NCBI GenBank assembly: GCA_964017065.1
Contig: OZ024787.1
Span: forward strand, 14,250,453 to 14,314,452
DNA length: 64,000 bases
Reading direction: 5' to 3'
DNA from: Haliclona indistincta
Taxonomy: Eukaryota > Porifera > Demospongiae > Haplosclerida > Chalinidae
Part shown: in pieces, positions 2,745 to 62,299 of the stretch
Position numbering within the stretch: position 1 is the stretch's first letter
Layout of the letters: each line of letters starts with the position of its first letter
Notes under the pieces: model-generated
Told to the model about the DNA's origin: nothing
Databases searched by the model: none
What the model saw: only the letters and a program-made list of their open reading frames with translations
Position numbers and translations under genes: made by a program

Positions 2745-2925
2745 AATAATTTGTGTGCAAATTATGACAACAAAATAGAAATATTTTTGACTGCTAGATA
2801 CAATTCAACAATTCTTTGAAAAAGTGATTCACACACTTACACTTCAAGTACTAATGAAGAAAACCTTAAAGAATGCATAGCTACGTAAGTATGTCACTTG
2901 CAGCAATAGCAGCAGCAGTGTAGCT
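2745..2925 (+). promoter_or_regulatory. Duplicated upstream region of 7TM copies
   Basis: About 180 bases before the ATG of copy 3 recur before copy 4 (about 4064-4287): the tract tttgtgtgcaaatta, then gactgctagatacaattcaa, then a stretch ending cagcaatagcagcag just before the start. Conservation into non-coding DNA shows that the duplication unit included the promoter/5' UTR. No TATA box could be assigned with confidence. Confidence 0.45.
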
Positions 2926-3792
2926 ATGGTGCTCAACATTACTGGAGTGGATAATCAACTCTACTATGATGTCAATGTTGCTTTGAATGCCTGTTTCTTC
3001 ATATTGCTATCTCTACTACCATTCCTGCTGTGTGTCTTGGTTATACTGGCACTGGTTCTTGCTAAGACTATTAATATCAAGATTCGAGTGCTTCTCACCA
3101 ATGTATTTGCAGTCGAGGTACTTGGCTGGATCTGCTATGCCACCTTCTGCCTGGGCTGGATAGTACGATTGAACTACAACGAAATAATTTCATGTAAGCT
3201 GTTCTATATAGCATATCTTGCGGCTGGTGTTGAAAAGGGCACTTGTGGAACTCTCTACGCAATCAATATCTTCCTCTTCATAAAGTACGGAGAGAAGAAG
3301 CTAAAATGGAGTGTAATAATACCATGCATTGTGCTATCATGGCTGATAATATCGATAATATCAATAATCGTTGTGTTAGTTTTACCGCCTGATTCGATAC
3401 GTTACAGCTTTGGATCATGTTACTTGCGCATAGCATCGTCTCCCTTAATCCCAACAACACTTGTTCTACTGATTGCACAGTCATTTGTCTTCATGATCGT
3501 TCAGATCGTTATGGCGATAGTCACGTGTGTGTATATCAAGAAACACACACTTGAAGGAAATGTTCAAATCAAGAAGGCAGTCGCTAAAGTACTCGCGTAC
3601 CTCATCATTGTTTCAATCAATACCTTTATCAGCACCATCATACCAGCTATGAGTTACTTCGTAGGGCAGCTATTCCCAGGATCTACTACTGTGATGACTG
3701 CTAGAGGCTACTTTGATTCACTTATCACTAGTGTAGCAGGAACAGCTACTCCATGCACTAATAGCCATAGCGCTACTCAAGCCAGTTCGTGA
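2926..3792 (+). pseudogene. 7TM receptor-like protein, copy 3 (frameshifted near C-terminus)
   Basis: A 288-residue ORF that aligns with copy 1 from the ATG through TM6 without a break. Near 3750, within TM7, four extra bases (tgca) relative to copy 1 shift the frame, so the last part of TM7 and the cytoplasmic tail are replaced by a short Ser-rich sequence ending at 3792. The original tail is still readable in the other frame to about 3880. It could still be translated as a receptor lacking the end of TM7; called a pseudogene, but a recent and mild one. Confidence 0.7.
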
Positions 3793-4287
3793 TGCAATAA
3801 AGACAATGCTATTCTTTAAGAAAGACAACAGGATCCATCCAGCAGTGAACAGCAATGATATTGAACTAACACAAGCATAGCTACATATATCTATCACACA
3901 AACCACAATAATGTGTTTACAACACATGTACATTTGGCTTGGACTAGCTGTTGTAAATTTAGCATATAAGAAGAACACATGCGAGACTAGTTCACAAACA
4001 GCACATAACTAAAACACTACTATACATGTTGTACCAAATCACTCTTGTGATAGCTGACTTAATGACTAATTTTGTGTGCAAATTACGATGAAAAAATACA
4101 AATATTTTGACTGCTAGATACAATTCAACAATTCTTTGAAAAAGTGTAAAAATATTTTTACACACTTACATTTGGTCACTGTCCTGCACTATTGTGTAAA
4201 CATGCTTAAAGAAAAAAAGTACTAATGAAGACAGCCTTAAAGAATGCATAGCTAAGTACGTCACTTGCAGCAATAGCAGCAGTGTGC

Positions 4288-5179: not shown

Positions 5180-21592
<16,413 letters not shown>

Positions 21593-22869: not shown

Positions 22870-25800
22870 TGGGTGAGTGGGTGAGTGGGTGGGTGGGTGA
22901 GTGAGCGAGTGAGTGAGTGAGTGAGTGAGTGAGTGGTACCTATTAGGTAAAATCGAGCTACTTTATGTACATATCTCCTCTTGTTCTCAAGTGTCACTCT
23001 TTTCTCAGTTCCTCCCTCCTCTAGTTCGACTGTTCTCACTGCTCCAAACTGGGCTAGCTGAGCAGTATAGTGAGCAGTGAGGTCGTCTAACTGATCCTGA
23101 TCATCACACTCCAGCACATGATTGAGGCTCCTGCACACAGTGAAAAAATGAGTGACTTTTGCAGTTTTGTAAAATCACAAAACCACAAATATTTTGAAAC
23201 AGTAGCCCTCAACCTGATGCTATGTCCATACCTTGCGAGTGTGGTGTTCTCCTTCATAAGGTCTCCAAGGACATTCTGAAGTCTGTTGTACTCGTCTTCG
23301 TCTCCTGTTAGATACTTGTAGACAGCTGGAGTGAGTCTGACTGTCATGGAGCATCCTGTGATGAAGAGATACAGTAACACTAGCTGTGAATAGATACTCC
23401 GTCTATCGTCTTGCAATGCTGAAGTGAAAAGTGCAGTGTCACCTTCATGCACTAATGTGTTCAGTCTCTGATCATCCTCCATCGTGTGAATAAAGACAAC
23501 AGTAACTACAGAGACTGAACACATTAGTGCATGAAGGTGACACTCTACACTTTTCAAGATAAGGCAGTCGATTATCATTATTACTTTTTCACTTCAGCAT
23601 TATGCATTGAGTTACACACCACCTATTCTCAATTCCTCATTACTCACTGCTGCTGATGATCTTTGCAATGATCTTTCCAAAGTATTCAAAGTAGAACAAG
23701 TGCTCAGGATTGATGGATGAGATGGGGTTGGGTCTATAGCGACCATCTTCAACAGACTCGAATAAAGCATAGTTAGGATTCACCATCTCTTGTGTCAGTA
23801 GCAGGAAGAACTCCCTGAGAAAGAGACAGCAATAATCAGTCTGCCCCACAGAGGGTCACTGGTAGAGCCAGGACACCTGTGCACTAAGCAGTGTCTAGCT
23901 GCCTCACAGAGGGTCACTGGTAGAGCCAGGACACCTGTGCACTAAGCAGTGTCTAACTGCCTCACAGAGGGTCACTGGTAGAGCCAGGACACCTGCGCAC
24001 TAAGCAGTGTTTAGCTGCCTCACAGAGGGTCACTGGTAGAGCCAGGACACCTGTGCACTAAGCAGTGTCTAGCTGCCTCACAGAGGGTCACTGGTAGAGC
24101 CAGGACACCTGCGCACTAAGCAGTGTTTAGCTGCCTCACAGAGGGTCACTGGTAGAGCCAGGACACCTGTGCACTAAGCAGTGTCTAGCTGCCTCACAGA
24201 GGGTCAATGGTAGAGCCAGGACACCTGTGCACTAAGCAGTGTCTAGCTGCCTCACAGAGGGTCAATGGTAGAGCCAGGACACCTGTGCACTAAGCCGTGT
24301 CTAGCTGCCTCACAGAGGGTCAATGGTAGAGCCAGGACACCTGTGCACTAAGCCGTGTCTAGTTGCCTCACAGAGGGTCACTGGTAGAGCCAGGACACCT
24401 GTGCACTAAGCTATAATGTGGGTGAACCACTAGTGGTCAGTGAGACATAAGCTATCCAAACTCCTCCCACTCACCAACTATAGCCCCACCCAGGCACTCG
24501 GTATAAGCCCACCCACTCACCAACTACAGCCCCACCCACCCAGGCACTCAGTATAAGCCCACCCACTCACCTGGTCACTCCTCCAGCATCTATTCCCAGT
24601 TCATTCTGAAACCTCACTCTGAGAGCACGATTGAAGTAGTGAGGATGAATAGCACTCACAGCGCTATCCAGCAATGAATCACGATCAATATTGACTGTAG
24701 GTGACACGTCTTGCTCATGCTGATCTGTTAAGTCGCTACGCAGCTTAGCAAATCTCTCTTTGAATGGTATTCTGAGATGTGGCTTTATCTTCAAAAGAAC
24801 AAGAGGTAGAGGTGACCCTTGTACGTGCTGACCGGCTACCATGACGTTAAGATGAGACAGCTCGGGATCCTCCAGTGTGAACGATATCAACACTTGACCT
24901 GATTTTAACCTAATTTCACACGGCAGAGACTGACCGGAAGGGCCTGTGACAGCAGCACTGATCAGGGAGTGATTGAACTGATGGATCGGGTTGAAGAAGC
25001 TATCGTACGCCAGCAGAGGACACGAGTTCTCCTTGAGCAGTTGGGTAGAGAGCGAGGAGCCCTTTATACCAAGCACATAGTGGGCAGGGTCAGGTTGAGG
25101 ACACACCTCCATACGAGCTATTGTCTTGTTTTCGTCATTAACATTGAATAGTAGCAAATGAGTCCCAGCATGATACAGTGTACATGAGCTCAGCACGATC
25201 TCACGCTTACCGACCGCCATACGCATCATCTGGCACTGAACTGTCTCTCTCTCGTTGCTGGTCTCGAGGCTTGTCATAGACTGTGCGGACACCTGGTGTA
25301 CATGGTGACCACCATTAGGTATGAGGAGCTTGAGGGTGGTCTCAATACGCGCTGTCGTCAAGTCAATCAAATTACCATAGTCGTCTCGAGGTACGAGAAA
25401 GAATTGAAACGGCTTACCAGCGATCAACTTGAGCAAGGGAACTAGAGAGAAGAGAGAGAGAGGGAGGGTGGTGAGAGAGAGAGAAAAGGAGGAAGCAAGG
25501 GAGGGAGGGAGGGAGAGAAGAAAAAGGAAAACATTACGGGTACTCCTCAAAATTTGTATTATATTATGACGAACAATAAAGTGAGTGTTAGAGACTAACC
25601 TTCAGTGGGGTATCTGTTAGAGAATAGTGTTACTCTCTTGGGCGGGTTGGCTCTCACAACGCTGTATATCGGAGAGGGAGTGGTGCTGGAACGAAACAAG
25701 CAGGGACGAGGAAGGCAGGTAGTCTCGCCCTGCCAGCACATTTTCAACAAGGTGTGACATTTGATGCAGAATACAGCAATCTTTAGCGGAACAGTTCGGT

Positions 25801-28800
25801 TAAAGAAAATCTTGATTAGTGTCAGATAGCGATTGATTGGAAATGCTGCTGCTGTAAGTCTAGACCGAGAGATTGATCTGTGACTAGCGTCTCCTTTCTT
25901 GAAACCTACAAACAAGGCTACATTGGAATCGCACAATTCGTTGATCAAAGGCTTCACCACGATCCACTTATGCTTCTTTTCCTCTGACATGCACCTAGTA
26001 TAGTGCCAACCAGAGGGTGTGGTCTTCCACCAACAGCACTGGTTGTTATGGTGACCAGCAATAGCTACTATCGGGTCAGGCATGTTAGCCTGTTCATGAG
26101 TAAGCTTAGAAACAGACGAAGCATATTTGACAGACTGAATAGTGATTGGTGACCCACGAATAGGATGATCACATGCGGTGGCCGATATCTTGGCAAACTT
26201 AGCCTTCCCTATGGAGTCTAAATAATACTTACTATGTAACAACTGTTGTGAAGATTCAATTTTGAAGAGACTTCCGACTTCGCTTCCAGAAAACGGCTCA
26301 TCGAGAATATTTAGCAATTGGAATTGCATACTACATCTTGGGATTTGATTGGAATCGGAGGCTAGATCAGCTGGGCTCATGGTGCTCAGCAGAGCACAGG
26401 GTAGATGAGAGAGAGAATGGAGAGATACTCCTTGTGTCTCAAATAGGAGGTGTAGAAGCTGAGGAGATTGGAACATGGTGTCATGCAAGAGCTCCCAGAG
26501 AGAAAGGATCATGGATGGTGGTTGAGTAGAGCGATCCACGTGAGACGATTCATTAGCTGAGCTGAGGATCACTCGAAGAGAGGAGTACGCTGGGCATGGA
26601 TGCAGGTTAGCATACCTAACCAAGCATTCTTGCTGCTTGACAAGATTGGTCACAGCTTTAGCAAAGAGAGGGTATAGCTTGAGGAAGAAGATATGATCTG
26701 TAGTGACTCGGTGTAGAGGAGTAACCACTCCATCTTTGTTCTCTAGTAAAACATCTACACCTGATTCAGAGCCTGTTTGGTGCGCCCACATGTCGGAAAA
26801 GAATTGTTGAGTTTGAGATGATAGTAGCTTAGTTTCTGCTGCTAGAAGACACAGGGAGAGTTCCGAGAATATGTCTGTGTGTGAGGGAGGTGAGCAGACT
26901 TCATGATGAGCCAGCGTGACTCTGAAGTGAATCACATTGCGTTCCTCCTCTTCAACTAATTCAACACTAACTTGCTCATTATACCCGAGAGTGAGCTCGA
27001 TATGAACTGCATTGAAGAGGTTGATCGGAGTGAGCCAAGTAAACAAGGTCTGGTACAGGTTCCTAAACCAGTGTGGGATCAGGCCTGATTCCGAGTAAAG
27101 AGCCACTGGTCTACCAGCCAGGTCCACTGCACTCTGAATGTCTTTAATCACCATGGCAACACACGGAAGTACACAAGAGAGAGATTGGTGAGATAGCTGA
27201 AAGAAGTCATCTGAAAAGTCTACCTTGGTGGGAATCTTCCTTGAACGAGCCCACCGCCTCATCTGATTGGACTGCATCAACAACTGGTCAGGCACACTGA
27301 TAGCATAGGTGTAGGGTACTATATTATATTCTGGCTCCAGAGGTTCATGATTATGAACATAAGGTAAAGAGAACTCCTTTGATGCTGAGCAGTAAGACAC
27401 TACTAGTACAGCAGACTGGTCATCAAGCTGAGAGTATGGATGGCTAGGTGACTGAACGCAAGTGACTGAGAGAGTGTGCACTGCAGAGCAGCTGGGATAT
27501 ATGTCCGCTAATGTAAGAGAGCCAGACTTGGAGAATGGAACCAAATGACCAAGAACTGAAGAGATGACGAAGGCATGGAATCCAATAGGTACTAGTATAG
27601 GAATATCAGAATCAGGAATTGAGTTTCTGAATGAATTCCAGTCGATCCTGAGCTCAATGGCTTCCCCGTTGTCAAAGTCTACAGGAATAGATTCAACCGT
27701 CCACTCTTCTTCGTTTAATCGCAATTGTTGATACTCAAATTGGTGCTTTCCGAAGTTGTGAGTGAGCCAAACGTCAGCTAGTAACAATCGCGAGTCTCCT
27801 GACGGCTGGGCAAAGTGTCTCACAATGCTTCCCCAGTCATAGAACAATATCATCATCAATAGCTGAGAGAAAGTACTCTCCATTTCACTCTCTTCGTCTT
27901 CCTCATTGTCCTCGTCCTCTATGCTATTCATGTTATCAATAGTTCGTTGTAAGACCTCGATGTTCTGTGGGAAGTGGTTCAATATAAGACACACTATTTC
28001 AAGATGACCATGTCCGATGGCACTCATACAACCTTGAACAGAAATGCTGTTTATTTCATCAAGCTCGTCAGGTACAAAGCATTTCTTGAGCATAAATTCG
28101 ACAACTTGTTCTCTTCCCAAGGTGCAAGCTGTAATGAAAGATAGCCCGAATAGCAGATTGGCATTAGTGTACCCGTCAGATCTCAACTTTTCAACATACT
28201 CTATGAACTCGTCAGAATAACCTTTAGATAGGTAGAATGTTGCTTGACTTAAGTATTCTGTGAAAGAGCGTGTGTTTGATTGTGAGCTGCTACTGTAGAC
28301 AGTAAGACGATCGTACAGGCGGTGTGCAGCAAGCGCTTTAAACTCTAGACTGGTTACACAATTTCGAATGCTTGGAACTGTTGGAAACAATTGGTCAGTT
28401 CTTAGTAAGTTATTCGATGACAGTGTCTCATTGCTGACCATTAGCTCATTGAACCACCCCATATGAAGCAGTTCCTCTTCTTTCATGAATTTGTTCTTAA
28501 ATCTCCCAAATTTGAATGAGATATTGACAGGCAAAGGGGACAAAGCTGCCTGGCGATCTTGCTCAATACCAAGCTCTGCGCAGAATAGGGACACTAACTG
28601 TGGATGACCAAGATATGCTGCAGTCATCAAAGGTGTAAGGTTATGAGAGCTGCTCGCACGACAGAAATCTGGTGCATTTTCACCTAGTATTCCTAGAATA
28701 TGCGCTGCCACTGGTTGAGACACTCCATTTTCTGCAGCAAAGTGAAGAACATTTCTCTTAGACTGTGAATCTAAAAGCATCATATAAGAGGGACCAGTTT

Positions 28801-31800
28801 GTGTCAGTAACTGCAGAGACATGAGATTGTTACTCTTTATACAAGCCTCCAAAACATGCACAGAGATACTCTCAGCAATCAAGCTTGCATTAAACAGTGC
28901 CTTCAGAAACATCTCTAAGATGACCGGGTAGTTGCAAGCTAGCTGAAGTACTCTGCAGGATAGCACTGTCTGCAAAATATGGAGAATACAACCAGCATTG
29001 GCACTCCAGACCGACAGAAATGCTTCAACAACTGACTCGTTGCCGATAGCAACTGACTGCAAGAATGTGTTCACTCTGGGACCAACCTGTTTGAAACTAC
29101 TTGTCACAACAGGTTTCAGAGAAGATGAGACAACACTTGACTCTTCCGTTGCTTTGTCTAGCAAGTGCTTGAGCCAGCCAGCACTCAGACATTCAATAAA
29201 GAAACTGCTATGATCCCAGTCACTCCTCCATTGCAAAGAAGACACAGACGAATGTTTAGCTAAACTGAAGAAAGAACTAGAGTTTGCTATCTTTGGGAAT
29301 ACATCAAGATCTGATAACCTACCAACCATACCATTGAGTAAAGAACAGTGGAATGGTGTCGTACCATGCACTGAATTGAAGAACAGTGCCTGGTCAGATA
29401 CACACATAGCATCAAGAAGACGCACTAATCCATGACGGCAACACCAGTAGACAGCATGCAGGAAGATAGGATGGTCAGCTAGCTGAGCCATATCGGACAG
29501 AGAGAGCTGTCCAAGCGCGCAGAGACCAGTACCTTCATGAGCACCCTGGGCAGCACCTTGCAACACGGTACCCCAGAACAGCACATTACGATCGATATCA
29601 GTGGCACGCACTGTCACTTCAGCTAAAATAGTAAAAAGCCATTCTACAATTTCCAATCTATCCCGTGAGCCAGCCAATAGCACAAGAGACCAGTATTTGC
29701 TGCGAAGGATTGTCGGCCATGACATATCTAACCACTGCAGTACTTCCAAGTTACCTACTCTGACAGCCATGTTAACAGCATCAGTCACTTTCTCTTGCAT
29801 TTGTTTGACTGCCATTAGCTGCTGGAGAATGCTCAGTGATCGATGTTTGCAGCACAAGAAGATGATGTTCTCACAGTCAATCGTCTCACTTTGTAATCCA
29901 GTAAGATACTCAATACCTAGCTCACATGAGGTGAGATACTGTAGCACTTGAGTAGCAATGGCTTCTTCTTGAGCCTTTATAGCATAGAACAATGAAACAA
30001 TACAAGATCGTACAAATCTAATTTGAGAAACTTCATCAGAGGTGATGACACGAGCCATTTCATCTGAGGTAGAAGATTTCCAAAATTTGAGCTGTTCTAA
30101 GAGTTGTGGTGTAAACATGGCAGACAAGATGGTCCAGTATCCTTTCTGAGCAGCAACAGCAGGATGCTTGAGAGGGGTCAGTGCAACCAGGGGCACTACC
30201 ACGCTAGTCAGTAGCTCTTGTGAAGGATGTAGTGAAGCTGGACGGACAAGAGACATGATATAGTCGCTGCTGAATGGTGGAGAGGTGGAGTCCAGGTTTG
30301 CAACAAGATACTGAAGGAATCGAGAGATAAAGGGCTCAACGATTGATAGGTCGTGAATAAGAGCCAACAAGGTAAGGTACAGAGACGATGGCTTCAAGAC
30401 ATCTTCACTAGTGTTATCAAGAAGAACACTTATCAACTCCTGAGACTGGTAAGCATGTTGAGACAAGTTGCTAAATAACACACCATCTAATGGGCACAGA
30501 CTATGGTCATGGATTATAGCTAGCTGTTCTGAGCGAAGGGTCCAGTCCCCTTTGTACAGATAGTAGTTAGGAAGATGAGAGAAGACACGGGTAGGCAAGC
30601 AGGTCTTCTTCGGGTTGTTGAGAGCTAAGTAGACCAGTGCACCGAGTATAGCTGGAGGAGATCCACTATCAGCACCTTTAGCAAGCAGCAGCTTCACAAG
30701 CTCAAGATGGCCGCCAATAGCAGCGTAGTAGAGAGGCGATTTATCACTTACTGTGTGAAGCAGACGAACATCGTGATCTATTAATAGTCGGACCATATCT
30801 GTATAACCCCACATACAGAGGAAGCAGAACAATGTAGGCAGAGAGTGATAATGCTGAATACAGACTTTGAAGAGACAAGCTAAAGACTGGATAGTACTGA
30901 CTAGTGAGAGAGAAGAACCAGTACAAAGAACCATGTTTAGAAATGAGAGGGTGACTAACAAATGCTGCTCGTCATTTTCTGAAGAAGTTAGCATTCGACA
31001 AATCAGTCCCAAGTAGCTATCGATGAGCAGTTGAGCTAAGACAGTAGCTTCCTCAGAATCAGCAAAACAGGACAGATACAACACGCGTGCACCATGTCGG
31101 CAGAGGACTAGAGAGTCTCGATAGACCTTCTGGGTCTCGAGAAGCCATATAACAAAACCATAGTGACCTAGAGATAGCATAGTAGGCAGATAACTCAATA
31201 ACACTTCGACAGTGTCTTCATCGATTGGAAACACCATGTTGTCGTGCTCAATAAGATTAAGATAGTCAGCTAAACTCGAGTGATGTTCTCGCACTGCTAA
31301 AGCTAGGGCAGGATATGTGTACTCAGCTGATTCCGTATCATGCGAGTTGGATCTTGAGGCGAACCAAGAACCGCCGTGCCTTAAAAGCAATGCAACCATG
31401 GCTACGCTAGCTCCACCCACTATTGCAGTCCACATAGGAGAGGCAAATGTAGATGCATCTCTGTTAAGGGAAACATCAAACCTAAACGAAAAGGTAACAT
31501 CAAACTCTGAGAACTTCAGTATAAATTCATAAATACGCTTGTGATAGTAGGTACGTGTGAAAGTTTATAAATTTTTTGCACGTGAATTTTCACGTTTTTG
31601 CCAAATGACAAGTTTTTTCGGTAAACATTTTGTTGCTCCAATATACTATGGGGAATTTTCACGCTTTGAGGAATCTAAGTGAAATTTTTTATGTACGAAA
31701 TTTTCTGTTTAGCGTTGCAATCCGGGCTTAATTCTCAAGACTTTCTGAATCCCAGCAACAGTTGAGAGCAAACTAACTTAATAACTGGTTTACTGCCTAT

Positions 31801-34800
31801 TATCGGCACGTGGAATATTATATCACTGAAACAGAAAATACACACAACAATTCCCACAAATGGGACTCAAATGGCGGCATAAGGCAAGAGTTCATTATGC
31901 AACAGTCAATATGCTCGTTAGACGTCAAAGATAATAAATGAGGTATAGTCAAAAGTATTGATACCTGGTCAATATCTCTTCCACAATCATTAACTGATCT
32001 TGTTCTGAGCTTAGATCAACAGAATCTAGTGAGAAATGGAAATATTGATATGTCGGACGAATGAACCGATAAGAAATATGAGCAATATTAAGTGCAACAA
32101 TAATTACGCTGAAAACTTGGTGATACACATCCAGTCTAAATGTACAAGACACTATCACTGTCAATTTAGCTGTTGCAGCTCCATCTTGGGATAATGAATA
32201 TGGCAATACAATACACAGAGGCTTTTCAATTTTCGAGCGACAGATCGACATGCTTCAAAATTAATGATAAAGTAAGATCTTGCCCACAAGAAATTTTGCA
32301 CAAAGCATTTGTAAGAACAGTCTTCCTACAGCGTCAATGCTGATTTTCCACTATCGTGACCGTAAATTTGCTCTATATGTTGTGGGCAAGACGCCACTGA
32401 TCACGGAAGTGTTTAAAGCATGTCAATCTGTTGCTTGACTATCGAGAAAATAGCCACAAAGCCAGTGTACTATTCTGCCATACTCTTATGGAGAGATCAA
32501 GCTACAAAACTATTAACAACGTGACTGCCATCATAAATTTTCAACCCTGTACTGGGTTGATGATCAAGGCAACGAATATCATTACAGCACAAAAACAGAG
32601 TGCATTGTCCAAACAGTATACATTGGTAATGACACAGAATCACTATGTGATGATATTCACGACTAAATGTTTGCAACCAAGGGCTCAGATAACATGGTAC
32701 AGGATTTTGCAGGTCACTTGTCGCGATGAAAACGACAAATCGACGAGGCCACGCCCACTTATCCAGCACCACAGAAAGTTGGCGAAAAGAAACGCTTTTA
32801 GAATCATGTATGGCATAGCGCCTTGCCGTTATTTTTTCTCAAATCACCAGGTATAGTCTATGCTTTGACTGCAACTGTCAAAGTTCACCCAGCAAAAGCA
32901 GCTAGCGTACACGATACTACAAGCGTTTCTTTTCGCCAACTTTCTGTGGTGCTGGATAAGTGGGCGTGGCCTCGTCGATTTGTCGTTTTCACCGCGACAA
33001 GTGACCTGCAAAACCCTGTAATTGCTATAACTACACAAGACTAGAAGAAGTACTATAGAGCTATGTGATGTATGAAGACATATGACTTACAGCTAGTGTC
33101 CAGTAATCTAGCCACACGCTCTTCTATGTACCAGTCGGGCCTGTAGAAACAACAGGAATTATTATAGATAATCTTGTTACGAAAGTGTGAGTGTGCACTG
33201 TGAAGAACAGAGAGAATTTCTTACCATTTCTTGAGAGGAGACGTGTCAGACTTGAAGTGATAATCGAGCGCGCTTGATCGTGCAAGACAGTGAACTAGGA
33301 GAGAAAATAACAATTATTATTATGGCACAATACAATCGTGACTCTTTTCAATCAATATAAGGTAGACTCACCTGTTATAACATGTAGCAGAGCAGCACAT
33401 TCAAAATCGATCATGCTTGTCATAAAATCACTAGCCATCACACTCATGATCTCGTCTTCCCAGCTTGAGTCGTACAAGAAGCTCCTGTAGTCAGTTCCAC
33501 CGAGCAGTGAAGCAACCGAGCGTCCGTGTGAGTCTTTCCATGCTAACACCATCCTGCGATTGCTGCATTGAGAGAGAATGCACTCAACTACCTCAACATT
33601 GCCTTGGGTTAGAGCCAGGTGTAATGGATAATACGACTCGACTGGCGGTTTCAGACAAAAAGGCTTTTTACTCTTGACAGAAGAAATTGAAGCAGTCGGA
33701 CAAGATGCACTATAGGAGACCATTAAATCTACCCAATTAGCAGGAAATGCTTGCGACAGCTGCTGAAGAAGTTGCCGGTCGATCCACCCTACAGCAAGAT
33801 TGAGCACCTTTAACCAGTTCTCTTCGAAAACACATGTAAAGTCGGAATCAAGTAGAGCTAGCACAGTTTGCTCATGTTGGTTCATGACTGCTAGCTCAAG
33901 AGGAGAGAAACCGTCCTTCGAGCGTCTCATGAGAGTGGTAGCTGTAGAGCAGGAACTTGCAGCGGCATCGAGGAGAGAGAGTACGACGTCATGATGCCCT
34001 TGCCTAGCTGCGTGATGGAGGGCAGTCCTACCACTGTTGTCAGCGAAACCTAACTCGGCCCCATTATTGAGAAGGATGCCGACGATCTCGACCAGACCCA
34101 TACTGGCGGCTAGCAGGAGAGGAGTGATCTGCAACTCTCTATCAACACACGCTACCTCAGCTCCTTGTTGGATAGCATAGCTCACAAGATGAGGAGTATT
34201 GGTGTATACACTATTGAACAGTAGTTGTGTTGCTTCTTCTTGCGAGAGACATGGAATCAGCATTTGATAAGAAGATGGAAATATCTGATCAAAGCGCAGA
34301 CGCTGGAGTAAGCTAGCAACACTGTGGCCACACTTGTCAGGAAGTGTTAGACAAGAGTCTTCTAGACATTGATCGCGATGACTGTTGAGGATGTCAGAGA
34401 CGATGTCCCAGTGGTAGTAAGAGAGGGCAAGGTGCAGTGGAGTAGATCCTGAGGGGTCCTGTCTTGTTAGAGCCGCTTCAGGGGAAGAGCTCGACTTCAG
34501 CAAGAACAGAGCAAAGGCAGGGCGACCCAGCCTGCAAGCAAAGTGAAGAGGAGTAGACTTGTAGACTGGAGAGACAGTGTCTGGGTCAACGCTGTAGGAG
34601 AGGAGAGTCTCTAGGCATTCCATGTGACCACCAATGACAGCATAGTGTACAGGAGAGAGACCAATGCAGTCGCTTCCCTGCAAACAAGACCGCGACACAG
34701 TAACAACAGCCTGTAACAAAGGGAAATCCCCTTCCATGCAAGCATTGCACGCCACCGTGATTAGAAACGACTCGTACTGTTCTAGGCTCGCTCTGACCGT

Positions 34801-35097
34801 CTCTCGGCTCAATAGATATACTCCAAAGTCATAGAGGTTGCTCGAGACAACAAGGTCATCTTTGCTCCCAACAGCCTTCTCCAGAGAAGCCCCATTTTCT
34901 ATAAGCAACACCGCCGCCTCTCTCCTCCCATGCTGTAGAGCCACAAATAGCGCTGTTCTCTGGTGCTTGTCCTCATTGTCGACTCCACTGGTGTTGAGAA
35001 GCGTTACTAGACTTAATACGTTGTTCTGATAGGCAGCGATATGGAGTTTAGTCCAGCTAGACGGGAGCAACTCGTCTGGAAGAGAAAGGAACGCCAT
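22096..35097 (-). CDS. Ankyrin-repeat / filamin-repeat / HECT E3 ubiquitin ligase, 11 exons
   Basis: Exons (minus): 35097-33372, 33294-33225, 33140-33091, 31458-25600, 25441-24571, 23814-23648, 23355-23232, 23130-22940, 22828-22608, 22386-22287, 22226-22096. Every join is GT-AG and in frame; the total is 9,510 nt, giving 3,169 residues. The N-terminal ~600 residues are ankyrin repeats (TPLHFACRLGRPAFALFLL, TALHHAARQGHHDVVLSLL). The 5.86-kb exon continues with degenerate ankyrins (SPLYYAAIGGHLELVKLLL; TPLMTAAYLGHPQLVSLF), an acidic patch (EDEDNEEDEESE) and a long region without recognised domain. Two filamin-type segments follow (HPIRGSPITI; GQHVQGSPL), then a HECT domain. It would take ubiquitin from an E2 onto a Cys and pass it to substrates bound by the ankyrins. 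Filamin plus HECT recalls AREL1; the ankyrin extension is extra. The joins at exons 3/4 rest on reading frame alone. Confidence 0.85.
22396..22602. repeat. Intronic (GAGT)n microsatellite in the HECT gene
   Basis: About 205 bases of GAGT with GGGT, CAGT and gcat variants. A second such tract, (GA)n then GAGT, lies in the next intron at about 22832-22934. Same coding-strand orientation as in the neighbouring fibrocystin-L gene. Confidence 0.9.
23408..23605. repeat. Imperfect inverted duplication in a HECT intron
   Basis: The 23413-23470 sequence (containing gtgtcaccttcatgcacta) recurs inverted at about 23515-23560 (tagtgcatgaaggtgacac), and a further piece (cacttcagcatt) at about 23590. It would fold into a hairpin in the pre-mRNA between the exons 23814-23648 and 23355-23232. 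Confidence 0.65.
23847..24412. repeat. 58-bp minisatellite, about 9.7 copies
   Basis: Copies start at 23847, 23905, 23963, 24021, 24079, 24137, 24195, 24253, 24311 and 24369, exactly 58 bases apart. The unit begins cacagagggtcactggtaga and ends with the gctgcct block. Variants (gcg/gtg, tta/cta, caatgg/cactgg, gccgtg/gcagtg) form patterns shared between neighbouring copies, which suggests recent unequal crossover. It lies in the HECT intron between 24571 and 23814. Confidence 0.95.
31459..32699. other. Intron of the HECT gene; unassigned sequence
   Basis: About 1.2 kb at the left side of the largest intron. Short ORFs occur on both strands (about 31949-32251 minus, 32431-32700 plus) but none has a recognisable domain. 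An 11-bp inverted pair, cttgcccacaa at 32280 and ttgtgggcaag near 32380, hints at a degraded element. Nothing else supported. Confidence 0.35.
32700..33018. mobile_element. Foldback MITE with TA target duplication (Tc1/mariner type)
   Basis: Arms of 98 bases (32700-32797 and 32921-33018) are near-perfect inverted repeats starting CAGGRTTTTGCAGGTCACTT, flanked on both sides by TA (32698-32699, 33019-33020). The 123-base middle has no coding capacity. Long TIRs with TA duplication fit a Tc1/mariner-derived MITE. It sits in the HECT gene intron next to the small exon 33140-33091. Confidence 0.85.
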
Positions 35098-35332
35098 GCC
35101 GGAGCGAGAGAGATGAAAGGTGAGGTAGCCGGTACGTTAGCTATATATGTAGCTATCCGTTGGTTAACAAGGTGAGCGCTGTAGTAGTGAGGCACCATAT
35201 GAGCGTAGTAGAGACAGTTTACTACGAGAAGAATGACGAGACAAATCTGCTGTGATGGTATTTCAGCCACGCCTACATGTACACAGAAATTATTAAGTCT
35301 TAATTAATTTTTATTAATAACAATGAATACTA
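35098..35332. other. Gap between the HECT gene start and the G-alpha-like gene end
   Basis: Only 235 bases separate the ATG of the HECT gene from the stop of the next minus-strand gene. It must contain the HECT gene's 5' UTR/promoter and the other gene's 3' end; aataatttttattaataac-like AT-rich DNA near 35305-35330 may hold the polyadenylation signal. No other feature. Confidence 0.35.
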
Positions 35333-37155
35333 TTATAAAAGTCTGTATCTAACAAGATGCTGTCTCTGAGTGATGTCTCGTGTTGCCTTAAGCAATAGGT
35401 CAGTGATGCTAGTTTCCTGGTCGATGAAATGATGATAGAGGTACACGGTGCGATCACGGCTAGGCTGACAAGACTGAAAGAGATTAGCAATGAACGACTT
35501 GGCTGCATCACCATCTTGCTGTGCACCTGTGGTCACCCTAAATACACTGCTAGCATGCATTTGTCATTATTAATTACCTTGGTAAGCAGGAAAATATTCT
35601 CTGAGATCATGCGAGGAAAGTTTAGAAACGAAAGTGTCACAGTTCATGAAGAACACAATGATCGAAGCCTGCTGCTGGGCATGATTTAGAAGGTCCTTCA
35701 AAATCTCCAAACTTCTCTTTAACTGGTTGTCAGTTTTTTCTCCGAAATCACTCAGAACCTGCAATATAGGTGCCATGTGTCATCGAGGATAGAATAACAA
35801 TCATCACAAAGAGTTGTTTATATCATACTACTACCTCATGATATCGGTCTGGTTCAACTACTAACAGACATGTAGCCGCCTCAGCTAAAAGCCGATTGAT
35901 AACTCTCTTTGACAGCAGACCTACGGAAGCAGTTATCCTGAGTAGAGATGCATAGCTAATGAAATAGGTAAATGTGACATCTGGTAACAGTAACATACTT
36001 GAAAGCAACACGATTGACTAAAACAGAGTACTGTTTGACTCCACTCAGGTTGACATGGAAACATTGCAAGTCCTCTTCCGTAGGAGAGTAGCGGCCTGAA
36101 GTCACAAGCTCCAAGTTATCCATAAAACTATCCATAGACAAGATAATATAGTGAGTGCTATACTGGTTCACTCTCTCACTATCTCATTGTCTCTAGTCCA
36201 TGATTGAACTCAGCTAGTCGTGTGAAGCATTCCTGGACTCCCTCATCACTCCAGAATATTCCAAAGTCAATCATGTGTTGTTCACTAAATGTACATCTTG
36301 CTGCTCTCTTGTTTCTTAACAGAAGTTCTCCACACAGCTAAAATAACAATAATGTAAACAAAAGCTGATTATGTATTAAGGACATTATTTTGTTGAGCTA
36401 TTTAAGACTTAGGTAGACACAGCAAAAATTATTATAGTATAGCATAATATGCCGGCACAATGTAGTTCAACTCGCATAGGTGTGTATTGCTTGTATCGCA
36501 TAGGTTTGTAGTTCTGCATGCAGCCTACCATGAGAGCAAACTACGTCATTTTCGAGTATCAGATGTGTAAAATACTACAAACTCACCGATCATCCGAGCT
36601 AATCAGTGCGAGAATATGTGTTTCGCTCTTTAGCTCGGCAACTAAACTACCAAATATGGTAAGACATGTTTACAACCCACTTAGCAGTGTACACTGTTCA
36701 TGCAGAAAAAATACATGACCTGGTTAGACAGGCCCTAGTTGGTCGTGTCTACTCGAGACAGTGACATGACCTGCACATCCCAAAGGTTATGAACAGTTAG
36801 CTTACTTTGACATGCTGTGATGCAAAACAGAGTCTCAGCATGGGCATAGCAACCATCAAAAGCTCAACAAGAGAAAAGACAATGTAACTGATATATTTGC
36901 AGTGCAACACCTTTTGTTCAACAAGCATTCGTTCAACAAATAGATTTGTGCTATCACGAGTGCTCCCTGAAAGAACCATGATTATAACCACAACACAGTA
37001 CTGTTCTTACCAAAGAGCAAAATGTTTTTGTGGCTGGTTGCACTCTCCCAAAGTTTTTGTATCTTCAGCTGTCGATCAATTTTTCGACTTGTGCTATTCG
37101 CAGTCTTCCTCTCCTGATGCGCTTTCCAGCACTTTCTCACGTAAGACGACATCAT
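35333..37155 (-). CDS. G-alpha-like pseudo-GTPase, gene A (356 residues)
   Basis: Exons (minus): 37155-37011, 36966-36806, 36337-36180, 36127-35999, 35937-35835, 35758-35578, 35526-35333; total 1,071 nt, all GT-AG and in frame, 356 residues (canonical G-alpha is about 350-355). Family signs: an N-terminal helix with SRKIDRQLK (cf. ERSKxIDRxL); the helical-domain stretch FWSDEGVQECFTRLAEFN and YFMDNLELVTSGRYSPTEEDL, matching the ADxGVQxC and YYLNDLxRI...YxPTxxD segments; SIIVFFMN and LREYFPAYQG (cf. SIILFLNKKD and FPEYxG). Nucleotide motifs are all replaced: P-loop FGSTRDST (no GK), switch I H179-V-N-L182-S-G where Arg and Thr are expected, switch II SVGLL for DVGGQ, N271-C-D-T for NKxD, and IDQE for TCAT. 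No Gly2 for myristoylation. It probably cannot bind GTP normally; role unknown, perhaps a decoy or scaffold for receptors or beta-gamma. Confidence 0.8.
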
Positions 37156-37174
37156 GATGATAGCTCTGAAGCCT

Positions 37175-37200
37175 TGTCCGGGGCGTGTCAACACTCAGCC
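37175..37200 (-). promoter_or_regulatory. Motif shared upstream of both G-alpha-like genes
   Basis: The plus-strand text gggcgtgtcaacactca lies about 25-40 bases upstream of the gene A start. Gene C has gggcgtgtcaatattca at about 62369-62386, 70-85 bases upstream of its start. The surrounding sequence is not otherwise conserved, so it may be a core promoter element. On the coding strand it reads as a GACACGCCC box. Confidence 0.4.
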
Positions 37201-38128
37201 ACGCAGTATGACGCAACTTGACGTACTCCGGTATCGTTACTAGCAACCAAGCATGCTACAGTATCAAGTAGTTTACCATTAAAACTTTGATTCACAAAAG
37301 TTGACAAGTTAATTAAGTAACCAGGGGCAACTAAAATTTGACACAGTGATCATGATACAGTAACGCGTCACTGCAGCCGCGAGGTGTCCCCATAAAATTG
37401 TGTTTCCAGTACATGTATAAGAGATTACCCTCAGTGATCAACAAATTAATTTTGTGGTCACCTGTTCACCTAATTTGTATTACATCAAAGAAAATGGTTC
37501 ATATATTTTGCAAGAACATGCCCATGATTAATAAGTCGTGATGATTCAAACAGACAGTTAGTAAGTATTTGAGCGTCATGATTAACAAATGCGAGGATGG
37601 AAAAATATTCTGTAACTAGGTGAACAGCAGGAATTGAAGAGGCGAGTGATGAATGATCTGGCTGCAGCAACATCTTGCTGTACATGCATGTGCACCTGTA
37701 CAAGATAAGCAGAATTATACACTGCTAGCAAGACACTTATTACTCACCTTGGTAAGCTGGGAAATAAATTATACTCTCTCAGATTGAATTGAGGCAAATT
37801 AGCAGTAAACTTATCCGAATTCATAAAAATACTATAAACACAAGAAAAAGAGTTCTGTTTCCTGATGCGTAACTAGACTGAGAAAATTCGCAACTTGACA
37901 TTAATTTTTGCTGATTATATCTGTTTTGTCTCCTGCCTCACTCAGTACCTGCAGTGTATGCAGTATGACAATTGTGCATTGTATACTAGTACATTCATGG
38001 AATGGCAGGGGCGAGCCTGAGCAGTGATATAACTATGGATATGTGAAATCGTCTTCGTGTAAACGGGGCCTTAGCCTTGTTAGTGTATAAAATAATAATT
38101 GCTATAATGTTAATATTTAACAGCGCTA

Positions 38129-38461
38129 ATGGGTTTGTTGATGGTGAATAGAATCAGTGCAGATATGGTGCACTTTCTCCAACTATCTCTTGATGAGTGT
38201 GTTCCTTGCCTAGGCGTCATGGGAACAATGTACCTGGAAGATGTGATGAATAGGGTTCCTCGGTCTCCTCACTCACTGCAGGCTCTACTGCTATCACACA
38301 CAAGCTCATTAGACGTACCTAAGTTACTGTTTGCTCTGTTGCAGCTACTGCTTTCCGCTGGCGTCTCCGGTAGGCCCTTTGATATTCCTTTTGTCGCTCC
38401 AGTCAGTGATTGGAACAATAATATTGGATATTATTGTTGTCTGCGAATATCAAAACAATAA
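38129..38461 (+). CDS. Possible terminal exon of unknown protein inside pseudogene B
   Basis: A 110-codon ORF preceded by a good acceptor (taatatttaacag at about 38108-38120) and ending ISKQ-stop, where the stop overlaps an AATAAA signal. The peptide (DMVHFLQLSLDECVPCLG; SSLDVPKLLFALLQLLLSAG) is leucine-rich and looks like real helical protein, but I do not recognise it. It could be a captured 3' exon carried in by the block that interrupts the G-alpha relic, or chance. Confidence 0.3.
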   Translation: MGLLMVNRISADMVHFLQLSLDECVPCLGVMGTMYLEDVMNRVPRSPHSLQALLLSHTSSLDVPKLLFALLQLLLSAGVSGRPFDIPFVAPVSDWNNNIGYYCCLRISKQ

Positions 38462-38604
38462 ATTAATGATCATTATTCAATATAATGTACCACGAGCGCA
38501 TAATTACGCATAGTGCACATACACAAGCATGTTATACCACATAATTATAAAGTATCACAGAGATAGAGTATAACAACATAGAGTTAGAGTGTCACTGGGT
38601 CACA

Positions 38605-38710
38605 AAATACTCCTCAGTCCTCAGTCTCCTCGCTCATCAGAATCATCAGTATCGGCATCACTAGCTTTGTCTCTGATCACCTTCTGTACCATATCCACAT
38701 CCCACATTAA
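38605..38710 (-). pseudogene. Possible exon relic with acidic C-terminus
   Basis: The minus strand reads WDVDMVQKVIRDKASDADTDD then SDERGD-stop. Acidic tails of this kind close many nuclear/cytosolic proteins, but there is no acceptor AG at its start and no partner exon nearby. Weak. Confidence 0.2.
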
Positions 38711-39769
38711 AATGGTTGTCAACAATAAATTAATGTGATAAAAATAATGTCATTTAATGTAATGCCATTAATTTATTCCCAATCACTGGCTCCAGTCGTC
38801 CGCTTTCACGTTGATCGGGTGAATTTCTGGTAACGGCCTTGTCGTGTAAAAGTTGTTGCTTTGCAGGTGTCTCTGATCTCTGTTGTTGTTGTCGTCCCTG
38901 AGTCATCTTCATCATTGCCAGAATGCCAGGTAATATCAGCTTGTTTGAAACCAAGCGCCAATTATAATGTGCGCACGTGCTAAAAAGGGCGTTTCCTAGT
39001 TCTCGGGAACATTGAAAAGGACAAACGCTACCCCGTGACAGATAGATACATTCCCCGCCGCGTGGGCCATTGTGCCAATCAATGTGGGGCTCGCTCAGGC
39101 TCGCCCCAAATATACACATTGCGCACATACTTTGCGCACAAAATAGTGCCTTGTAACTCTTTTCAACAGCAGGTCTGTGGCTACAGAAGTTATCTTGTAG
39201 TCAGTGATCGAGCCATTACATTATGCTTGGGGAGTGCTGCAAATCCTCTTCTGTGGGAGATTAATGTCTTGAAGTCACAAGATCCAAGTTGTCCAGAAAA
39301 CTATACAGTCAATAGACAAGACAAATAGTAATCCCATACTGGTTCACTCTCACTATCCAGTGGCGTAGGAATAAATTGTGCAATCAAGTTCGAGCTACAT
39401 GTATTAACGTTTTATGTTGATATTGCACTTACCACCAGCTGATTCTTTGCCATCTTTCAGAACTAGAGCAGACAGACAGAACAAACAAAAACGCACGATT
39501 GCTGTATGTTTCGTGGCTCCGCCCAAAGAGGCATATTAAGTTATTTCCACGGGAAATACAGAATATTTCAAAGGATTTCCAGTGATACTTCCATTTCATT
39601 AGAAAAAACAAAACAAATTGATACAAATTATACCTTTCAGAGAGAGAAAAATAGGAAGGGGTGAGAGTTGTGAGTCAACCTCACCGGGAAACTATACAGG
39701 GTGTGCATGTCACCCTTAATTTTATTTTGTGCTATACTAGCCTACAGAAACCAGTGAGTCTTGTGGTTG

Positions 39770-59776: not shown

Positions 59777-62299
59777 TTATAGAAGTTCATATTTTGCAAG
59801 AAGCTGTCCTGAATTAATATCCCGTGCTGATCCAAACAGACAGTTGGGAAGAATTTGAGAGTCTTGGTCAACAAAATGATGATGGAAGAATACTCGGTGA
59901 CTAGGCAAACAGCAGGACTGGAAGAGACCAGCGATGAATGATCTAGCTGCAGCGATATCCTGCTGTGCACCTGTACAAGATAAATAGAATTATATACACT
60001 GCTAGGAAGACCCTTATTACTCACCTTGATAAGTAGGGAAATAATCTCTCAGATTGTATTCAGACAGATTAGCTGCAAACTTATCCGAATTCATAAAAAA
60101 TACAATGAATCCGGTATAAGATTTACATCGCACACTGATCAGTCCTTTAAAAATAGCAAGACTCTTGTCAAGTTGATTATCCGTTTTATCTCCTACCTCA
60201 CTTAGTACCTGCATGTACAGCAAGATGTATGTTAATCTAAACAATGCTCATGTACTTCAATATATCGATCTACTGGGCAAATGAATGCAACTGTCTCGTC
60301 AGCAAAATAGTGCCTTGTACTTCTTTTCAACAGCAGGTCTGAGTTTACAGCAGTTATCCTGCAGTGAGTGCATTATAATGTATGCTTACATGCGAATCTA
60401 TTTGATAAACATACTTGAAAGCAACATTATTGATTAAAACAGAGTACTGTTTGACACCGCTCAATGTGAAATGGGGGCGCTGCAAGTCCTCTTCTGTGGG
60501 AGAGTAGTGGCTTGAAGTCACAAGCTCCAAGTTATCCAGAAAACTACATAGACAGACTATTAGTAGTAGTGCTATACTGGTTCACTCTCACTATCTCATT
60601 GTCTCTAGTCCAGGATTGAACTCAGCTAGTCGTGTGAAGCATTCCTGTACTCCCACATCACTCCAGAATATACCAATATCACTTCTTTGTCGTCCATTGA
60701 TATTATGTCGTGCCTCTCTCTCTGTCTTCGACAATATTTGCCCACATAGCTAAATAAGATGGGTATAGTACACATGCGTTAGGTAACGGATCATACATAC
60801 ACTTATTGAACTATAGTAAAGACATACAGAAGTAGCATTTTATCAATCTGAAAATGAACCTGCAGCTGTTATTAATTCATCCCTACCATATCATTGCTGA
60901 GCGGCAATTAAAAATTAATTGTGGTGTTGCAACATGATTGCAGACCGAACCCATTCCAATACGATAAAATACGTCCGGTGAACCATGTGGATATTTTAAT
61001 CCTATGCGAGAAATGGCACTGCACTGAATGATTGCTGACACAATGTGATCCTCTATGCTACTTTGAAATAATTTTATTAGAAGTACAAGTACATAAAGCT
61101 TGATAAACCAGCCACCTTAACACAAACCATAATAGTGTTGTAGCCCAGGCGACCGTAAGATTAAAGGCGCCGCTCGGTGGTTATACAGGTATACCATGGG
61201 CAATACAAGTATTTTCAGGAAGTGACGTCACATAGCAACACCGTAGCAACAATTGAGATGGCTTTGTCGATAATCGTACACTGCCGTCGTTCAGCAACGC
61301 ACTGTCATTCACCTCTGGTGACTTCTATAGAGGCTCTACTACCTTGAGCGCTTCATTGAGGAACCATAAGAACACTATTCTCAAGCTGGCAGTACACAAT
61401 ATAACCTCGGGGGTTAATTTTATCCGCCCTCGTTCGCTTCGCGGCATCGTGTAGTAAAATCCTTGCGTACTACCATGAGATAACCTATACTTATGTAATC
61501 AGGAAGCCTGTATACATTGTAAAGAGAGGGGAATTATTTTGTTTATTTAAGTACATAAAGTACCCACATGAAGACAAACTGTGTCATTTTCAAGCTGTTG
61601 ATGTGTAAGCCGCTACAATACCCAAGCTAGCTAGTGCGAGAATATGTTTCACTCTATAAAGACCGGTTTACAGTAAGACCGCACAGCACTATGTTGCGTC
61701 AATGCAACACAGATATAGAAATTTGTTCCATTTCTACATCACGCTGCAATACAATTTGAGTGAACAACGCAACGTAGCACAAGAGTCATATTATAAACCA
61801 GTATTTAGTTTCTTTAGCGAACTATGATATATGTAGGACATGTCTACTTAGCAATGTACACATACAAATGACACGACCTATAGTTTGGATTCTGCGTACC
61901 AACCATGCATTACATAACATTCTATACCTGCACATGACTGGAGGAGTAGGATAGCTTATGCATCGACATAGCCATCACAAGCATCTCTATCAATGAGAAT
62001 ACAGCTGCACAGACATACTTCGAGTAATCCTTTATATGTGTTGTCCTTTGTTCCGATGACACTTTTTTGATGAAACTGTCAGTACAATCACGAGTACTTC
62101 CTATTATAACAAGAAGCATGATCAGTCACCGAGTGATAGTTTTACCAAATAGCAAAATCTCCTTGTGTTTATTACTACGCGTCCAAAATCGTTGCATCTT
62201 CAGCTGACGATCAATGTCTTCGCTTCTTTTACGAGCAGCCTCACGAGCAGCCTTATTATCTTGATATGATCGCCAACGCTTCCTCAAGTAAGACGCCAT
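59777..62299 (-). CDS. G-alpha-like pseudo-GTPase, gene C (364 residues)
   Basis: Exons (minus): 62299-62146, 62100-61928, 60749-60592, 60543-60415, 60358-60256, 60208-60025, 59970-59777; total 1,095 nt, in frame, 364 residues. Exons 3, 4, 5 and 7 have exactly the lengths of gene A (158, 129, 103, 194). The N-terminus KAAREAARKRSEDIDRQLK is very close to the canonical G-alpha N-helix. FWSDVGVQECFTRLAEFNPG and FLDNLELVTSSHYSPTEEDL match gene A. The motif changes parallel gene A: FGSTRDCT for the P-loop, HFTLSG for RVKTTG, Leu at the catalytic Gln position, MNSDK for NKKD, HHFVDQ for HFTCAT. The C-terminus is KYELL. No Gly2 for myristoylation. Intact frame and conserved novel motifs argue that it is functional but not a normal GTPase. 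Confidence 0.8.
60750..61927. other. Large intron of G-alpha-like gene C
   Basis: About 1.2 kb where gene A has a 468-bp intron. Holds AT-rich sequence and a short GC-rich patch (about 61410-61450, cctcgggggtt and cgccctcgttcgcttcgcgg) of the kind found in dispersed repeats. No exon recognised. Confidence 0.45.

Follow-up and report, generated by a model that had tools for sequence, protein, structure and literature searches.

Two genes of Gαq descent predicted to encode G-alpha proteins with nearly all nucleotide-binding boxes replaced

Gα subunits are the textbook GTP-driven switch, and we know of no described animal Gα class that lacks GTP binding. The window analysed here, a stretch of DNA 64 kb in length, raises the question of what a Gα might do once the switch is gone, as gene A on its minus strand (37155–35333) reads as a full-length Gα in which the nucleotide-binding motifs are almost all replaced. 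An initial annotation had called the product a pseudo-GTPase of the heterotrimeric class, perhaps a decoy for receptors or βγ subunits, or a scaffold. Taken as a whole, the explanation that we favour on balance is that gene A and an intact paralog, gene C, encode working Gαq-derived pseudo-GTPases that would act as fixed-state competitors at receptors or Gβγ.

Gene A consists of seven exons with GT-AG borders throughout, which join in frame to 356 residues followed by a TAA stop. Exon 1 (37011–37155) encodes an N-terminal extension, the αN helix with its IDRQL motif, and β1, while exon 2 (36806–36966) encodes the former P-loop (GSTRDSTN), α1 and αA; both are given by the gene model and by spliced alignment. 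Exon 3 (36180–36337), which belongs to a segment sharing 82% DNA identity with gene C, carries the helical domain (FWSDEGVQECF), and exon 4 (35999–36127; gene model and DNA comparison) carries the end of that domain, the former switch I (HVNLSG) and β2–β3. The former DVGGQ box with switch II and β4 fall in exon 5 (35835–35937; gene model), and α3, β5, the former NKxD box (MNCD) and αG in exon 6 (35578–35758; gene model and profile alignment). Exon 7 (35333–35526) supplies α4, β6, the former TCAT box (IDQE), α5 and a C-terminal tail that ends in YRLL before the stop. The internal exon borders were found again by a spliced protein-to-DNA alignment with a canonical Gα, P0001, as its sole input, so the gene model is independent of the choices made in the initial annotation, and its seven exons joining in frame to 356 residues are confirmed. 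The aligner was written for this analysis, and exons that it proposed without homology (fragments; L059 alone and L063) were unreliable and were discarded.

An open frame of 594 aa with ankyrin repeats (33352–35136, minus strand) follows gene A in the same orientation, starting some 200 bp downstream of it, and another of 1989 aa, also with ankyrin repeats, occupies 25595–31564 (minus strand). An inverted repeat at 32698–33020, with 113-nt arms that are 96% complementary and spaced by 97 nt, is possibly a small mobile element. Elsewhere in the window, 8411–10375 (minus strand) encodes IPT/TIG and G8 domains in surroundings rich in THSL repeats, and its product is presumably fibrocystin-like. 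A 303-aa open frame at 2881–3792 (plus strand) has five hydrophobic segments by a crude threshold and no Pfam match; it may represent a portion of a seven-helix receptor.

Homology of the predicted gene A protein to Gα is far above chance. The Pfam G-alpha family (PF00503) matches it with an E value of 1.6e-32 and 113.4 bits (cut-off 48.8) over profile positions 2–331 of 333, and the one further Pfam family falls far under its own cut-off. Among PDB structures, Gαq chains match best (E 2.4e-30, residues 15–355), and a profile-profile comparison of an A and C alignment with a ten-row Gα alignment gave a probability of 99.9% (E 1.9e-37, 331 columns). The match is full-length, as had been proposed, but the description of it as nearly residue for residue needs qualifying: the α1/αA linker contains 12 empty and 4 inserted columns, and the N-terminus is extended.

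Loss of otherwise invariant residues is concentrated in the nucleotide pocket. The reference set comprised 12 rows of canonical Gα, namely P0001–P0003 and nine models from the genome studied here, with 84 positions at least 90% invariant; nucleotide-contact sites were taken from a general list for the family, and six alignment columns around TCAT were re-registered through the HF anchor. On this basis, gene A keeps 3/20 invariant sites in the pocket, 0/11 in switch II and 30/53 elsewhere, and gene C keeps 3/20, 1/11 and 31/53. Replacement in A affects 17/20 pocket columns against 23/53 elsewhere (Fisher p 0.0016; for C, p 0.0013), and with pocket and switch II set together against the remainder, p is 1.9e-5 for A and 3.5e-5 for C.

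Box by box, gene A reads GSTRDSTN at G1, where GK is lost, HVNLSG at G2 and IDQE at G5, and its G3 is destroyed whatever the register. G4 is MNCD in the ungapped register, with the Asn and Lys lost and the Asp kept. The initial claim that all five boxes are replaced, by FGSTRDST, HVNLSG, SVGLL, NCDT and IDQE, therefore nearly stands; the exception is G4, where NCDT is one residue off and the Asp persists. Replaced in both A and C are Lys46, Ser47, Arg178 (by His), Thr181 (by Leu), Asp200, Gln204, Asn269, Lys270 and TCAT. The two proteins carry identical replacements at K46T, R178H, T181L, D200A, N269M and K270N, and TCAT has become IDQE in A and VDQD in C. With Q204L in A, the reported changes of the catalytic Arg to His, the Mg-binding Thr to Leu and the catalytic Gln to Leu agree with the alignment used. 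The only pocket residues retained in both proteins are Gly40 and Asp272; since the latter is the G4 Asp, some weak or altered nucleotide binding is conceivable.

Alternative exons that would restore a box were rejected on a pattern scan of both loci. No G1–G5 pattern occurs in any minus-strand frame of 35150–37900, the gene A locus, so splicing inside it restores no box of those forms; the transcripts that the initial annotation had named as a challenge to its reading, with a GK-containing P-loop or NKxD regained, find no matching pattern there. At the gene C locus, three stray box-pattern matches occur, all of them outside the coding exons.

Gene C (59777–62299, minus strand) is an intact paralog of 364 aa that has lost the same boxes. 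Its seven exons (62299–62146, 62100–61928, 60749–60592, 60543–60415, 60358–60256, 60208–60025 and 59970–59777) have the same phases as those of A, its product matches Pfam G-alpha with an E value of 1.3e-39, and the A and C proteins are 56% identical. A third copy, B (37503–39299, minus strand), is nearer to C and is a pseudogene that carries a stop, has truncated exons and contains additional DNA between them. No further intact family member appears among the matches listed for the 144 Mb genome, counts being lower bounds, and besides the canonical Gα genes the other matches listed are one- or two-exon fragments on contigs C1, C4 and C6, again a lower bound. At one locus (L064, G000:C1:12807500-12813000) the 3′ portion of gene C exon 2 and its flank occur three times, with a DNA identity of 92–95% along some 170 bases, and at another (L052, around 3800–4150) a segment of an A/C exon 3 is included in tandem repeats of some 70 bp.

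Similarity between A and C is uneven. The segment that spans exons 3–4 and the intron between them (35992–36342 in A, 60408–60754 in C) is 82% identical in DNA, against 67–68% in the other matching stretches. Because the intron shares this elevated identity, gene conversion between the paralogs is probable here, and exons 3–4 were analysed apart. G1, G4 and G5, whose replacements are shared, fall beyond the converted segment, and the simplest account is that their loss predates the A/C duplication; G2 lies inside that segment, and its shared loss therefore says little about timing.

Selection was assessed by pairwise codon maximum likelihood between A and C. Outside exons 3–4 (258 codons), ω was 0.171 (dN 0.42, dS 2.46) with a likelihood ratio against ω=1 of 65.3, where ω is a pairwise average to which one lineage could contribute more than the other. 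Over all 353 codons ω was 0.287 (likelihood ratio 58.3); exons 5–7 gave 0.256 (dS 1.70, likelihood ratio 30.6), exons 1–2 gave 0.05 with dS saturated (8.2), and exons 3–4 gave 0.50 (dS 0.36) with a weak likelihood ratio of 4.1. When neutral evolution of gene A was simulated with substitutions only, the frames were still open in 49/2000 runs at 0.1 substitutions per site and in 0/2000 at 0.3, 0.6 or 1.2. An ω of 0.17 at a dS of 2.5 indicates that A and C are working genes rather than relics, with both copies evidently under purifying selection. At the level of sequence, both combine GTPase homology with lost catalytic and nucleotide motifs, and we consider it very probable that they are working, protein-coding pseudo-GTPase genes derived from Gαq. 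The pseudo-GTPase reading of gene A is in this respect well supported, the pocket having been lost in two paralogs under purifying selection.

Canonical, box-intact Gα genes of the Gi, Gq, Gs, G12 and Gv types are present in the same genome, where the class labels Gi, Gs, G12 and Gv were assigned in this analysis and the ends of the Gs1, Gv, G12 and Gq2 models are incomplete or only approximate. Among them, Gq3 (contig C4, 124.96–131.65 kb) resembles A and C: it has seven exons with the same phases, one of its introns falls at EYDQ|VL, it aligns with them from end to end, and it has a C-terminal Y(−4) and L(−2). It differs in keeping GTGEAGKST, TTG, DVGGQ, NKID and TCAT, all of which are lost in A and C, and in lacking their basic N-terminal extension and Gαs-like last 15 residues; A and C in turn have no N-terminal CC. 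Each of the six introns in A and C has a Gq3 counterpart in phase and place, the second lying two alignment columns off. A phase 0 intron after EYDQ/RYHE is common to A, C and Gq3 and absent from the Gi, Gs and Gv models, where an intron lies at reference position 240 instead, and the intron at 54 found only in Gi is absent from A and C. Gq1 and Gq2 have six exons, and the fifth intron of Gq1 lies elsewhere (238), which speaks against any plain rule by class. According to Lokits et al. 2018 (PMC5896119), preGNAQ has seven coding exons whose borders are conserved.

Trees and identities point the same way as the introns. A protein database search with Gq3 was considered for the best 120 of its 6779 matches, among which Gq3 is 60% identical to an Ephydatia muelleri protein and 59% to a fish Gq. 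A tree was built from 26 rows, of which 12 were hand-picked from those 120 and the others drawn from the reference alignment. In it, A and C form one clade that groups with 15 Gq rows against nine others at a support of 100/97; the branch leading to A/C is about 4.0 changes per site (3.22 + 0.80 on either side of the drawn root), a length at which long-branch effects are possible. Over the whole protein, A has 90 identities to Gq3 against 80 to Gs2, and C has 105 against 71. These comparisons indicate that A and C are of Gαq descent.

The C-terminal tail, the main receptor-selectivity element of a Gα, tells a different story from the remainder of the protein. In A, the final 15 residues agree with Gs2 at 11/15 positions and with Gq3 at 3/15, and in C the counts are 8/15 and 3/15, so that neither tail is of the Gαq type; A and C match one another at 8/15. 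The comparison was chosen after the resemblance had been noticed and relies on a single Gs model, Gs2 (Gs1 is cut at its end); with that selection in mind, the excess of Gs2 over Gq3 matches in the tail of A (+8) is the largest of 342 windows along the protein and is matched by no other, the excess in C (+5) is reached in 2/350, and outside the tail the excess is at most +3 in either. Shuffled tails equalled the Gs2 match in 0/100000 trials for A and 1/100000 for C. Both proteins have their C-terminus where canonical Gα do and carry Leu at −1, −2 and −7 and Tyr at −4, and their α5 regions are identical at 10/26 positions, without above-average conservation.

Descent from Gαs, which the tail had suggested, was rejected in favour of Gαq on the introns (11–12 in the Gs models against six in A and C), the tree and overall identity. 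Nor is there any sign that the tail was copied from Gs2 at the DNA level: 26/45 bases in A and 27/45 in C are identical to Gs2, and the residues that A shares with Gs2 use the same codon in 4/11 cases. At such low DNA identity recent copying is unlikely, and the Gαs-like tail looks like convergence or old descent instead.

At the N-terminal end, αN residues I19, D20 and L23 are retained in A and C, and IDRQLK is identical between them. Lost in both are W211, K210 and C214 of switch II, which we take to be the residues that normally grip Gβγ, so ordinary Gβγ binding would be weakened. The N-terminal net charge is +8 in A and +6 in C, against 0 in Gq3. Neither protein has the Gly2 of an N-terminal acylation site, and the only Cys near the N-terminus is Cys9 of A, with none in the first 34 residues of C. 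A and C also retain much of the helical domain and the β strands.

We infer a protein that would keep the two-domain Gα fold without GTP, its nucleotide site being filled by apolar or altered residues (T181L, N269M and D200A in both, Q204L in A). With the ligands for GTP exchange and hydrolysis missing, A and C would have no off/on cycle, and their most likely role would be that of a fixed-state mimic. The αN helix (IDRQL) and basic N-terminus would bring them to the membrane or to Gβ, their tail, being Gαs-like, would enter receptors, and competition with normal G proteins would then damp or insulate signalling. Such a nucleotide-free mimic, competing at receptors and/or Gβγ, is a mechanism that we put forward tentatively, the tail result having raised our estimate of it slightly. 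The earlier idea of a decoy or scaffold fits the kept IDRQL of αN and the Gαs-like tail, while the switch II contacts to Gβγ are lost.

Other roles can be envisaged for the same proteins. The old fold could have taken on an unrelated new function, for instance as a structural subunit, with neither receptor nor Gβγ contact. The very long A/C branch, about 4.0 changes per site, would be in keeping with this, and the abstract for CENP-M describes a pseudo-GTPase that acts as a structural part (PMC4080450); we nevertheless consider it unlikely, as the αN and tail residues are kept or Gαs-like. Somewhat more doubtful is a Gβγ sink or scaffold without a receptor role, in which the αN helix would hold Gβγ and the remainder would serve as a platform. 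Retention of I19, D20 and L23 in both proteins and the identical IDRQLK speak for such a sink, but the second Gβγ surface (switch II, with Trp211) is lost in A and C, and a Gαs-like C-terminus of canonical length would be needless for a pure sink.

A remodelled pocket that still binds guanine nucleotide or another ligand, through Gly40, the new P-loop LLFGSTRD and the G4 Asp, would be compatible with the fixed-state competitor reading, yet we hold it to be improbable. A and C are identical at 12/16 positions of β1 and the P-loop and at 8/12 of β5–G4, and Asp272 is retained; against this, Lys46, Ser47, Thr181, Asp200, Asn269, Lys270 and TCAT are all replaced, and pocket columns outside exons 3–4 are identical between A and C at 13/21 positions versus 103/209 elsewhere (p 0.36). 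As this excess is not significant, pocket conservation was rejected as proof of a new ligand, which is thereby left as only possible. Least credible, and very improbable, is that gene A is the decaying relic of a Gαq duplicate whose box losses are plain decay: the true relic B adjoins it and one- or two-exon family fragments are scattered on contigs C1, C4 and C6, but all seven exons are open, with their splice sites kept, in two diverged copies, near-invariant sites are kept at 30/53 outside the pocket and switch II versus 3/20 in the pocket, and pseudogene status of A was rejected on the ω of 0.17 (likelihood ratio 65.3) together with frames that stayed open in 0/2000 neutral simulations at a distance of at least 0.3 (though in 49/2000 at 0.1).

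Protein database searches with A (one match) and with the A and C alignment (three matches) returned only box-intact Gα, so proteins of the A/C type may be limited to this lineage, or unpredicted elsewhere. Three predicted proteins on ENA contigs (P0007, P0008 and P0010), which are 76–77% identical to Gq3, are possible INTERMEDIATES. Their boxes are partly broken: P0007 reads GTSEAGMTT and P0010 GTSEAAGMTT, and each of the three has DVTGQ and NETD; GK survives in P0008, two of the three retain TCAT, and the switch II Trp is retained. Among 123 Gα-like proteins the G3 and G4 patterns are missing only in these three, and the G5 pattern alone is missing in six others. They are still 61–62% identical to the canonical P0009. 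The tree places them next to A/C, apart from Gq3 and the rest, at a support of 89/77 that is not firm.

Seven residues are common to A and/or C and at least two of these three proteins and absent from eight other rows; 72Y and 301S are common to A/C and all three, and 155F and R178H to two of them. Three residues are common to A/C and Gq3 alone; the two counts, taken without polarity, are not symmetrical. The genome studied here contains no match to P0008 closer than Gq3. It is possible, though we think it unlikely, that Gαq-type subunits left the GTP cycle stepwise in an animal lineage, probably sponges, with P0007, P0008 and P0010 as partly broken forms and A/C as the end state. A and C would then be permanently nucleotide-free mimics that join a Gαs-like tail to a Gαq body, in which the pocket may have a new role; they would be a natural counterpart of the laboratory dominant-negative Gα, aimed at Gs-type receptors.

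The initial annotation also held that no metazoan Gα lacking all five boxes had been described. This is uncontradicted by the titles and abstract openings of the open-licence PMC papers listed, in which no animal Gα without boxes was recognised; the three partly broken database proteins nonetheless exist and temper the statement. Pseudo-GTPases are known elsewhere, and abstracts on p190RhoGAP domains, septins and CENP-M describe a GTPase fold without the motifs that serves binding or assembly (PMC5593906, PMC10731463, PMC4080450). Unlike A and C, none of these is a heterotrimeric Gα, as far as the abstracts show. Deviating motifs are reported in some Dictyostelium and Naegleria Gα by PMC8584482, which also reports nucleotide-independent action for the Gα-derived XLGs of plants. 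Plant XLG1–3 are the nearest analogue, being Gα-derived and independent of nucleotide as proposed here for A and C. XLGs differ in their plant origin and in the large, Cys-rich part at their N-terminus, whereas A and C are Gαq-derived and of standard Gα length, gene A at only 356 aa having no such part. If the proposed reading is correct, A and C, in which the switch is lost and yet selection persists, would, together with their partly broken relatives, allow a test of which Gα functions need no nucleotide, and they would show whether animals evolved nucleotide-independent Gα separately from the XLGs of plants.
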